Positions 7,441 through 9,730 of a stretch of DNA of 10,714 bases are shown here, in pieces. The number at the start of each line of letters is the position of its first letter. Position 1 is the first letter of the stretch. Under the pieces are notes generated by a model. The model was not told the origin of the DNA. It saw only the letters and a list, made by a program, of their open reading frames with translations, and ran no database searches. Both the position numbers and the translations under genes were made by a program. The stretch spans positions 1 through 10,714 of the forward strand of contig JAHACW010000067.1 of assembly GCA_018375675.1 (NCBI GenBank), given 5' to 3'. Origin of the DNA: Actinomyces sp. (GTDB lineage Bacteria; Actinomycetota; Actinomycetes; Actinomycetales; Actinomycetaceae).

Positions 7441-7989
7441 ATGTTCCTCCCCCAACGACTCCCCGGCCAGGACTGGCTCGGCGTCGTCGTCGCAATTCCC
7501 GAACCGTGGGTCACACAGCTCACCAACCTGCGCCTTCGCCTGGGAGACCTTGCGGGATCGCGCATCCCCGCGCACATCACGCTCATGCCGCCGACCCCCG
7601 TCGCACGCGAGGCTCGCGCCGAAGTCATCGATCACCTGCGCTCCATCGCCTCGAGACACTCCCCCTTCCGCGTCACCCTGTCGGGCACCGATTCCTTCCG
7701 CCCCGTCTCCAACGTCGCCTTCATGACGCTGGCCGAAGGCGCCTCCGACTGCACGGACCTCGCCGAGGAGATCCGCTCCGGCCCCCTCGACCACGAGACG
7801 CGCTTTCCGTATCACCCTCACGTGACTCTGGCACAGGACGTGGACGACATCGCCCTCGATCTTGCGCTCGATATCGGCGCAACCGTCGAGGCCTCCTGGA
7901 TCGTTCCTGGATTCCGCCTGGACCGCATCGACCCCTCGGGCATCTACTCCTCGATGGCACTGTTCGACTTCGACGCCTCCGGGCACTGA
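7441..7989 (+). CDS. 2'-5' RNA ligase/LigT-like 2H phosphoesterase
   Basis: A 182-residue protein with the two diagnostic HxTx motifs of the 2H phosphoesterase superfamily: HITL (45-48, in RIPAHITLMPP) and HVTL (127-130, in FPYHPHVTLAQD). These histidines and threonines form the active site in the LigT/cyclic phosphodiesterase fold. Members act on 2',3'-cyclic or 2'-5' phosphate linkages of RNA or small nucleotides; the true substrate here is unknown, and the 'ligase' name comes from the family. The frame stays open far upstream as antisense to galK, but the ATG at 7441 is chosen because the domain starts directly after it (GVVVAIPEPW strand) and it lies past the galK promoter. The Shine-Dalgarno is weak (GGCAGG). 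It is the only supported plus-strand gene in the window. Confidence 0.88.
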   Translation: MFLPQRLPGQDWLGVVVAIPEPWVTQLTNLRLRLGDLAGSRIPAHITLMPPTPVAREARAEVIDHLRSIASRHSPFRVTLSGTDSFRPVSNVAFMTLAEGASDCTDLAEEIRSGPLDHETRFPYHPHVTLAQDVDDIALDLALDIGATVEASWIVPGFRLDRIDPSGIYSSMALFDFDASGH

Positions 7990-8091
7990 CTTCCTGCCAG
8001 GCTGTCGCCCGCTCTTTTCACCGCCCGCTTTCCGCGCGGCAGGATCCCTGTCTGCCCGCTTATCGCGCGCTGCCGTTCCGGGCACCGAATG

Positions 8092-8111
8092 GCCCGGCCG
8101 TGGGGCCGGGC
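8092..8111 (+). terminator. Possible terminator hairpin of the LigT-like gene
   Basis: GCCCGGCC, a GTGG loop and GGCCGGGC form an eight-pair perfect stem 103 bases beyond the stop codon at 7989. There is no T-run behind it and the distance is long, so it is only the best available candidate. Confidence 0.35.
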
Positions 8112-8224
8112 TGCGCCGTGGGCGGCGGCCCGCCTCATTGATGGTGTTGCTTGTGGCTCCGCTGGTGTTCCGGGCGCCGGCGGGCCCGGCCGCCCACGAG
8201 ATCGCCACACGCGAGCTTCGCTCG

Positions 8225-8399
8225 GAGTGGTCGATCTCGAAGCCCGCCCGTGCCCTCCGGGCCCTCCGGCGCCCTCCACACCAGTGGGACCTGGTGTGCT
8301 GACGCGTGCTTGTGCGTCGTCTCGAAGCCCGGCCAGGCCCCGCCACCGCCCACGGGCACCGCAGCCAGGCCTTCCGGTCCCTCCGGCGCCCTCCACACC
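8225..8399. repeat. Diverged tandem duplication, two copies
   Basis: Two stretches share sequence in the same orientation and order. CTCGAAGCCCG occurs at 8236-8246 and 8321-8331, and a 21-base identical block occurs at 8262-8282 and 8379-8399. The copies begin 85 bases apart at one block and 117 at the other, so the copy at about 8310-8399 carries some 32 extra bases. On the minus strand one frame repeats the peptide VWRAPEGPEG twice because of this. It looks like an old local duplication with an indel, not a coding repeat. Confidence 0.7.
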
Positions 8400-8482
8400 G
8401 GCGCTCTCCTTACTGCGAGTAGCCAGCCCAAGCCACACCACAATCTGCAAGCACCGCCAGGACCCACAGCCCCATCTTCGGG

Positions 8483-8635
8483 GCATTATCCGGATAGGTT
8501 GCGCGCACGCGGATAGGTTATGCACATCCGGATAGGTTATTAAGCTATCCGGATGTTCATTACCTATCCAGATGTTCGTTACCTATCCGGATGTTCGTTA
8601 CCTATCCGGATGTTCGTTACCTATCCGGATGTGTA
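8483..8635. repeat. Eight-unit mirrored array of a 19-base repeat
   Basis: Five head-to-tail units with consensus TTACCTATCCGGATGTTCG occupy 8541-8559, 8560-8578, 8579-8597, 8598-8616 and 8617-8635; the third and fourth are identical and the others differ at one to three positions. Three units in reverse orientation occupy 8483-8501, 8502-8520 and 8521-8539, with the same 19-base period, six, five and three differences, and only T8540 between the two sets. CTATCC/GGATAG is kept in all eight, and most contain the palindrome ATCCGGAT. There are no unique spacers, so it is not a CRISPR array. It lies between two convergent gene ends, with no gene start nearby. It may be a protein-binding array or an extragenic repeat; function unknown. 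Confidence 0.92.
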
Positions 8636-8647
8636 TTGACCCCGGGA

Positions 8648-8779
8648 CCGCCCCACCAATTTCGCATGCAATTCCCCCACGACTATTTCAAATTATGAAT
8701 TCAGATCGTTGGAATTGCAACGTTTTCAGACTTTGTTGAACCTTCACACAATTGAATTGCATGCGAAAGTTTGGGGCGG
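8648..8779. mobile_element. AT-rich element with imperfect terminal inverted repeats (MITE-like)
   Basis: The left end (8648-8674) and right end (8754-8779) are inverted copies: outer CCGCCCC/GGGGCGG, a short mismatched joint, then a perfect 15-base match TTTCGCATGCAATTC (8660-8674) to GAATTGCATGCGAAA (8754-8768). The 79 bases between are about 37% GC, against high-GC surroundings. About 132 bases with no gene fits a miniature inverted-repeat element or the remains of a larger insertion. No clear target-site duplication flanks it, and the ends match no insertion sequence family I can name, so mobility is inference. Confidence 0.5.
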
Positions 8780-8799
8780 GCGACGATGATGACTACGGG

Positions 8800-8833
8800 T
8801 GCGCCACAGACGACGGCTGCGCCACAGACGACG
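8800..8833. repeat. Two 16-base direct repeats
   Basis: TGCGCCACAGACGACG occurs at 8800-8815 and 8818-8833, a period of 18 bases with only two bases between. It lies between the inverted-repeat element and the xthA terminator. The 18-base period keeps frame, but no coding gene is supported here. Confidence 0.8.
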
Positions 8834-8852
8834 AACACACCGCATACACGAA

Positions 8853-8889
8853 AGGCCGCGGCCCGGGAAGGACTCCCAGGCCGCGGCCT
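8853..8889 (-). terminator. xthA terminator
   Basis: AGGCCGCGGCC (8853-8863) pairs with GGCCGCGGCCT (8879-8889), and an inner GGGA/TCCC stem (8865-8868, 8874-8877) continues the fold. On the minus strand it begins 13 bases after the xthA stop and is followed by TTCGTGT, a weak T-rich run. Position and stem strength make a terminator likely. Confidence 0.75.
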
Positions 8890-8902
8890 CGTCGTTACAA
8901 CG

Positions 8903-9730
8903 TCAGATCTCGTAGGTTACCGAGACCGGCGCATGATCCGAGAAGCGCTCCGCGTACTCGTCGGCACGGCCGATCTCGAAGGAACGCGCGCGCTCGCCCA
9001 GGGCGGGCGTCGCGTACTGGTAGTCGATGCGCCAGCCTGCATTGTTGACGAAGGCTTGCCCGCGCCACGACCACCACGAGTAGGGTCCCTGCACGTCGCC
9101 GGCCAGGTCGCGCACCGTGTCGCGCCAGCCTTCCTCCACCCACTGATTGAGGAAGGCGATCTCCTCGTCGAGGACACCGGCGCGCTTGTTGTGGTTCGGC
9201 TTCCAGTTCTTGATGTCGGCCTCCGAGCGCACAACGTTGAAGTCGCCGCACACGAGGGAGGAGATGCCGCCGGCGGCCTCTTCGGCAATCAGCTCTGCCA
9301 TCCGCGCACCGATGCGGGGCAGGTGCGCCATCTTGGCCTCCTGCTTGGGGGTATCCTTCTCGCCCGAATGGAAGTACGCAGAGACGACGCGCACGGGGGT
9401 GTCACCACCCTCGGGACGCACGACGGCCTCGAGCCAACGGCCCGAATCCACGTCCGTCTCAGCATCGTCGAGGATCAGCCGGGGCTCACCCTCCAGGACC
9501 GCACGCCCGCGTCGCACGGCTACGCCCACGCCCGCACGACCCTTGATACGGCAGGGAACCCACACGCTCTCCCAGGCCTCGCCCATGATCTCGCGGGAGA
9601 TCTCCTCGGGCGCACGCACCTCCTGCATGAGCAGCACGTCCGTATCGGACCCCTCCAGCCAGTCGAGGAAGCCGCGCTTGTGGGCGGCGCGGATGCCGTT
9701 CAGGTTCACGGTGGTCACCGTCAGAGTCAT
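8903..9730 (-). CDS. xthA: Exodeoxyribonuclease III (AP endonuclease)
   Basis: A 275-residue member of the exonuclease III/endonuclease-exonuclease-phosphatase family (usually about 260-280). It nicks DNA at abasic sites and removes 3' blocks in base excision repair. Active-site residues are in place: Asn11 in NLNGIRAA, metal-binding Glu37 in LMQEVRAPE, Tyr119 in SAYFHSG, Asp163 and Asn165 in CGDFNV, Asp236 in WRIDYQYAT, and Asp265-His266 in the terminal SDHAPV. The ATG is preceded by AAGGAG five bases upstream (9736-9741). A possible -10 (TAGACT at 9763-9758, minus strand) lacks a clear -35. The gene follows folD but a terminator lies between, so it probably has its own promoter. Its stop faces the repeat-rich gap. 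Confidence 0.94.
   Translation of the reverse strand: MTLTVTTVNLNGIRAAHKRGFLDWLEGSDTDVLLMQEVRAPEEISREIMGEAWESVWVPCRIKGRAGVGVAVRRGRAVLEGEPRLILDDAETDVDSGRWLEAVVRPEGGDTPVRVVSAYFHSGEKDTPKQEAKMAHLPRIGARMAELIAEEAAGGISSLVCGDFNVVRSEADIKNWKPNHNKRAGVLDEEIAFLNQWVEEGWRDTVRDLAGDVQGPYSWWSWRGQAFVNNAGWRIDYQYATPALGERARSFEIGRADEYAERFSDHAPVSVTYEI

Follow-up and report, generated by a model that had tools for sequence, protein, structure and literature searches.

Clade-bound extragenic arrays of a 19-bp unit in the Schaalia odontolytica group, a family of putative protein-binding sites

The array and the gap that holds it

The window is a stretch of 10,714 nucleotides from Actinomyces sp. (GenBank assembly GCA_018375675.1, contig JAHACW010000067.1). 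Its gap between a 2'-5' RNA ligase family gene and an Exo_endo_phos gene, termed the exonuclease below and which we take to be XthA, holds a repeat array (Table 1). The initial annotation had described this gap as convergent and the array as eight units, three reverse and five forward, all keeping CTATCC/GGATAG, and the sequence bore out each of these points. The eight hexamers span 8492-8626. The accompanying claim of a single 19-base period without spacers held within each half and failed at the orientation switch, a near-palindrome where hexamer starts lie 15 bp apart as opposed to 19 bp elsewhere and one odd base (8540) keeps the halves in register. TRF called the array as two 19-bp blocks, 8488-8540 and 8545-8632. 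CTATCC occurs exactly 8 times on both strands of the whole window (expected 2.33; 0 of 200 shuffles attained 8), and every occurrence falls inside 8492-8626. Several units of the forward half (8541..8635) are nearly identical and presumably stem from local expansion. The window contained no tRNA and no Rfam match at the gathering score, and positions 8440-8800 had no blastn match in the phage and plasmid collections.

Table 1. Features of the window at and around the array
Feature	Coordinates	Strand	Remark
2'-5' RNA ligase family gene (Pfam)	7441-7989	+	Left neighbour of the gap
Convergent intergenic gap, 913 bp	7990..8902	.	Array and two further dispersed repeat families
Three reverse units	8483-8501, 8502-8520, 8521-8539	-	GGATAG at 8492, 8511, 8530
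Counterpart of the conserved 3+3 element	8488..8592	.	Spans dyad offsets -52 to +52; profile from 35 non-redundant arrays out of 90
Central dyad GGATAGGTTATTAAGCTATCC	8530..8550	.	Centre base 8540; family form used in searches GGATAGSTTAWTAASCTATCC
Five forward units	8541-8559, 8560-8578, 8579-8597, 8598-8616, 8617-8635	+	CTATCC at 8545, 8564, 8583, 8602, 8621
Exo_endo_phos gene (Pfam), termed exonuclease	8903-9730	-	Right neighbour of the gap

When positions 7950-9000 were compared with the 38 nearest-relative genomes, nine gave matches, mostly at many places and in three separate intervals, which we read from these alignments as three repeat families. Besides the array, a GC-rich dispersed family covers the left part of the gap (8141-8404) and has many matches in G001, G011, G012, G013, G021, and G024. 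The third family (8651-8779) is about 130 bp long, has 15-bp perfect inverted ends (8660-8674 and 8754-8768), and is multicopy in relatives. It also lies in the window's gap of G045 and, twice, of G011, both without the array there. By eye, the same gap (loci L186 and L184) carries a tandem repeat with a unit of about 18 bp in G011 and one of about 32 bp in G041. With these other short tandem repeats in the same place, the gap seems to be a spot where repeats accumulate.

Distribution, placement, and build of the family

We scanned one genome per species, 84,980 species in all, for the exact junction and obtained 85 stretches, 84 of which were in records of the S. odontolytica group. These 84 comprise records named Schaalia or Actinomyces together with Sanguibacter keddieii 250_SKED and Xylanimonas cellulosilytica 352_XCEL. 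The latter two (records L079 and L094) appear to be misnamed Schaalia-group genomes, because their exonucleases share 97% and 99% identity with that of the window. The 85th stretch (L105), from a Bacillales bin, was a lone 1+1 palindrome and was dismissed as an array.

Among 35 genomes of the genus, the junction with at most one mismatch was found in 12, with 8 to 42 copies in each of ten genomes and one each in G018 and G044; at two mismatches or fewer, G012 had 46. A triple CTATCC on the 19-bp step occurred in 10 of the 35 (13-52 per strand) and was absent from 25. The backward control for this pattern gave 6-39 matches per strand in the same ten genomes and zero in the 25, and it matches because CCTATCC contains the hexamer in both reading directions. 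Exonuclease identity to the window's sets the same ten genomes, at 87-99%, apart from the remainder, of which the best reaches 76% (34 of the 35 genomes gave a match). Viral contigs contained no exact junction, and their four triple-CTATCC matches were simple repeats without a junction.

The family is real and clade-bound. By these searches it is confined, within the genomes covered, to the S. odontolytica group, bar two distant species with a single array each, and the window array is by the same matches one copy of a dispersed extragenic repeat family and not a dedicated site. An extragenic repeat family had been among the options offered by the initial annotation, and the many copies per genome in relatives confirm that option. 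A dedicated single site did not survive the search of relatives, which returned arrays at many places; a single centromere-like or plasmid-iteron site is likewise unsupported, given many chromosome-wide copies and the lack of a match in the phage and plasmid collections. Titles and opening parts of abstracts in the open-licence literature held no description of the family, and among the matches listed, array strings appeared only in papers whose titles point to unrelated subjects.

We could place 70 of 98 arrays relative to genes called by a simple caller; the other 28, the Bacillales one included, were too close to a locus edge. For these 70, overlap with a called gene never exceeded 20 bp. 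Gaps with an array were convergent in 31 cases, tandem in 30, and divergent in 4, compared to 14, 85, and 38 for the array-free gaps (minimum 150 bp) of the same loci. Arrays sit between genes, prefer convergent gaps, and shun divergent ones. Of the 140 flanking gene sides, 99 were 3' sides and 41 lay upstream of a start, only 10 of these within 300 bp, which supports the earlier view that an ordinary operator is unlikely. Within tandem gaps, arrays showed no bias toward the stop as against the start (18 of 33).

The build of the arrays was scored on 98 junctions, representing 97 distinct arrays with the Bacillales match included, under a rule that permits one mismatch and one skipped unit. 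The commonest build was 3+3 (40 of 97), followed by 3+4 and 2+3 (17 each). Most copies switch from reversed to forward units around GGATAGSTTAWTAASCTATCC, the central 21 bp being fixed by the search pattern both here and in the exact scan, and one-direction half arrays also exist (L052; G001 221646-221746). For the conservation profile, we used the 90 arrays with enough flank, merged at 85% identity or more to 35. The hexamers at offsets 24-29 were highly conserved and those at 43-48 less so, neither set being fixed by the search pattern, and conservation dropped to about background past offset 52 on both sides. The typical element, as read from this profile, is about 105 bp and has a near-palindromic centre with three units of about TAACCTATCCGGATG on each side, reversed on one and forward on the other, at a 19-bp period. 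A helical turn is 10.5 bp, and the 19-bp period is not a whole number of turns.

Conservation, turnover, and pairing of the arrays

The core of the unit had been said to stay conserved while the units diverge. We examined this at locus L139, recovered in other genomes through its flanks, where the array aligned in 8 of the 10 group genomes (G043 falls outside these; G011 has a 95% array match beside one flank). Across seven of the eight aligned genomes at this one locus, G024 being dropped for an inserted unit, only 1 of 36 core columns was variable, against 25 of the 69 remaining array columns (Fisher p 8e-5), which supports the claim. In six of the eight genomes, array identity was 0.85-0.99 versus 0.55-0.82 for the left adjacent 60 bp, the side compared, against a shuffled 0.53-0.58. 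These left flanks were mostly near shuffled identity, with some above it (0.82, 0.70) and one same-species pair at 0.97.

A wider set of array pairs with matching gene flanks gave the same picture, although many pairs come from multi-array gaps and are not strict orthologues. Core identity exceeded noncore identity in 58 of 68 pairs; among the 57 with diverged near flanks, it did so in 49 and did not in 8. Mean identity over these 57 pairs was 0.90 for the core (computed without the central pair), 0.68 for the rest of the array, 0.58 for the flank, and 0.54 for the null. The window's own locus offers no such contrast between array and flank, since its left flank seems no less conserved than the array. 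The 69/69 array identity between G018 and G044 was considered as a sign of selection and set aside, since neighboring windows are likewise 96-100% identical. Taken together, core conservation and the recurring dyad, period, and 3+3 build support the earlier judgment that a row of sites is a better account of the array than random tandem expansion.

The main rival explanation is that the arrays are mobile or exchangeable DNA. They would then be nonautonomous and REPIN- or MITE-like, with units that serve as recognition sites of a transposition or recombination enzyme and cores kept for copying and not for host function. We rate this as a possible but improbable account of the family, and both it and protein binding can be true. 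Copies certainly turn over. G011 has about 166 bp with an array, near an assembly N at a join, where seven of the nine other group genomes read straight across (six by alignment, G012 by coordinates); the same site holds about 35 bp in G045 and several hundred bp in G043. The G011 array was scored 1+3 by the counting rule; by eye, it shows three reversed hexamers, with a 20-bp step at one of them. Similarly, G039 has 257 unaligned bp with an array versus 4 bp in G001 of the same species. At L314/L315, these two genomes differ in the array and about 170 bp beside it while the outer flanks match, as if arrays had been exchanged. In the window's gap, the array is present in four of the ten group genomes (one with two copies) and missing from six; in two of these six, the gap measures only about 131 bp. 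Because the same gap lacks the array in six genomes, the window's copy is dispensable. Forward units at this locus vary from 2 to 6 in relatives. The outcome that the initial annotation had named for a neutral repeat was therefore seen in unit number and not otherwise, as relatives have the array and its core is conserved.

Unit dialects that differ by species also fit mobile DNA. GGAT follows CTATCC in 72% of the units of 250_SKED and in 10% of those of S. odontolytica FDAARGOS_732, in which the commonest follower is AGAA (32%). Upstream of one hydrolase gene, we found an array in all 12 loci examined, with different alleles and up to three junction mismatches; these are 12 of 15 matches, with G007, G023, and a partial second G018 copy left out. 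In the distant species G018 and G044 (L064/L067), which account for two of these twelve loci, the hydrolase gene and the single array seem to have arrived together from the S. odontolytica group. An ancestral copy is the weaker reading of this array: the hydrolase of G018 shares 77-91% identity with the ten group copies, whereas the exonucleases of both species share 70% with the window's. The array was probably transferred with the neighboring hydrolase, as judged from these identities, and its having remained single is a further point for mobile DNA.

Several observations weigh against mobile DNA. No target-site duplication or common ends were obvious in the filled and empty alignments of the G011 and G039 cases read by eye; at the window's locus, a possible GCCCCA(T/C) repeat is a candidate duplication. 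Flanks past offset 52 are unconserved, so the defined terminal inverted repeats of a MITE are not seen outside the unit array. The search for PF01797 (Y1, the RAYT-type transposase), which covered that transposase family alone, had no match in the 35 genus genomes, all of them relatives of the window's own genome, at E 0.001, while the control was positive in 5 of 14. Finally, locus-specific linkers at L139 stay in place over diverged left flanks.

We also considered whether the inverted halves act as an RNA hairpin or cruciform, such as a two-way terminator or mRNA stabilizer between convergent genes, and find this quite unlikely. On either strand, the window array does give a very stable fold (-81.7 and -76.7 kcal/mol; z -10.7 and -11.9), which is inevitable when like units stand in inverted arrangement. 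The enrichment in convergent gaps also fits, as does pairing of the inner arms above expectation at offsets 11, 12, and 14 (0.71/0.57, 0.71/0.53, and 0.89/0.71), where direct neighbors are alike too. However, opposing arms in the 35 arrays showed no average excess of complementarity (-0.017 and -0.013 over offsets 11-19 and 30-38), and inner arms paired below expectation at offsets 15-19. The kept pairing of inverted units that marks REP, BIME, and REPIN elements was therefore limited to offsets such as 11, 12, and 14. Adjacent direct units resembled each other above expectation (+0.135 and +0.103), and the innermost variable base (+/-4) was mismatched like-with-like in 68 of 97 junctions. Unequal arms are common. 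Between 7900 and 9000, there was no terminator-like site with a GC stem and T run (shuffle mean 0.7), and at L139, conserved terminator-like hairpins, seen by eye, already flank the array on both sides. The missing average arm pairing, the likeness of direct neighbors, and the +/-4 mismatches favor duplex sites, presumably spread by local tandem unit duplication, over a hairpin, although the case against structure is not closed.

A replication or segregation site (a DnaA-box cluster, iterons, or a parS- or matS-like site) is very unlikely. Direct and inverted 19-bp sites do resemble initiator arrays, and on four genome maps, with the terminus taken opposite dnaA and one genome's list holding 21 of its 22 places, only 6 of 65 collapsed positions fell in the quarter farthest from dnaA. 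The remainder are dispersed over the other three quarters, and single-genome KS tests of position gave p values of 0.035, 0.065, 0.25, and 0.97, which is weak and comes from related genomes. DnaA boxes were rejected: five dnaA-region loci have one or two TTATCCACA each and one CTATCC in total. Iteron arrays share the rows of direct sites of about 19 bp; the initiator gene in a replicon origin is a different matter, as the seven window proteins scanned contain no initiator domain and copies are dispersed on chromosomes. Least credible of all is a neutral tandem repeat (VNTR) with a chance orientation switch, which would suit the varying unit number and the similarity of units within one arm but is largely contradicted by the same dyad, period, and 3+3 build at dozens of places and by the contrast between core and other array columns at L139.

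A proposed role and its relation to known repeats

We think it reasonably probable that the family is an extragenic repeat specific to its clade and that selection acts on a dyad-symmetric row of putative protein-binding sites; protein binding is what we infer from the conservation pattern. Counting against this reading are the dispensability of the window's copy, the one-direction half arrays, and the misfit between the 19-bp period and whole helical turns. In this model, a clade-specific putative DNA-binding protein would occupy the central inverted pair, probably in dimeric form, and from there would spread in head-to-tail fashion over the direct units on either side. The resulting nucleoprotein patch, in quiet DNA behind genes, may organize or insulate the chromosome. 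Extra units would arise by local tandem duplication, and array copies would be gained, lost, and exchanged between gaps. A more speculative step, which we offer tentatively, is that one actinobacterial clade has a chromosome-organizing or insulating system of its own, with about 8-46 dyad arrays per genome, each of which would load a putative sequence-specific protein that spreads outward in 19-bp steps, the dialect drifting by species alongside the protein.

The family is confined to one clade, which includes S. odontolytica, and at one locus its sites persist while neighboring DNA is lost. Identifying the putative binding protein would tell whether one clade can evolve a whole chromosomal protein-array set and what role that set has. 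S. odontolytica XH001 is a host of the epibiont TM7x, and a saturated transposon library of it exists (PMC12369343); the passages of that paper on repeats or intergenic DNA make no mention of the array.

Three known kinds of repeats invite comparison. Initiator-binding iterons are mostly direct repeats in plasmids, and the lambda origin has nearly perfect 19-bp inverted repeats (PMC5043065). The arrays are likewise rows of sites; unlike iterons, they are chromosomal, have many dispersed copies, and have no match in the phage and plasmid collections. REP, BIME, and REPIN elements are short, extragenic, multicopy, inverted, and species specific (PMC2817692, PMC3116915, PMC3733652) and are linked to hairpins and RAYT transposases (PMC2817692, PMC3116915). 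The 19-bp arrays share the shortness, the inverted arrangement, the species specificity, and the extragenic, many-copy habit (ten genomes have 8-42 junctions each, and all 70 placed arrays lie outside called genes). They differ in the absence of PF01797 from all 35 genomes and of an average excess of arm pairing, and their unit is a direct 19-bp site where that of REP, BIME, and REPIN is a palindrome of 20-40 bp. Thus, unlike the best known bacterial extragenic repeats, the family gave no hairpin or RAYT sign in the tests made. BOX, RUP, and SPRITE of Streptococcus pneumoniae, described as structured and probably parasitic, are also interspersed repeats nearly confined to one species group with slow turnover (PMC3049150). 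In contrast to these, the family described here consists of one uniform site repeated in two directions around a dyad.
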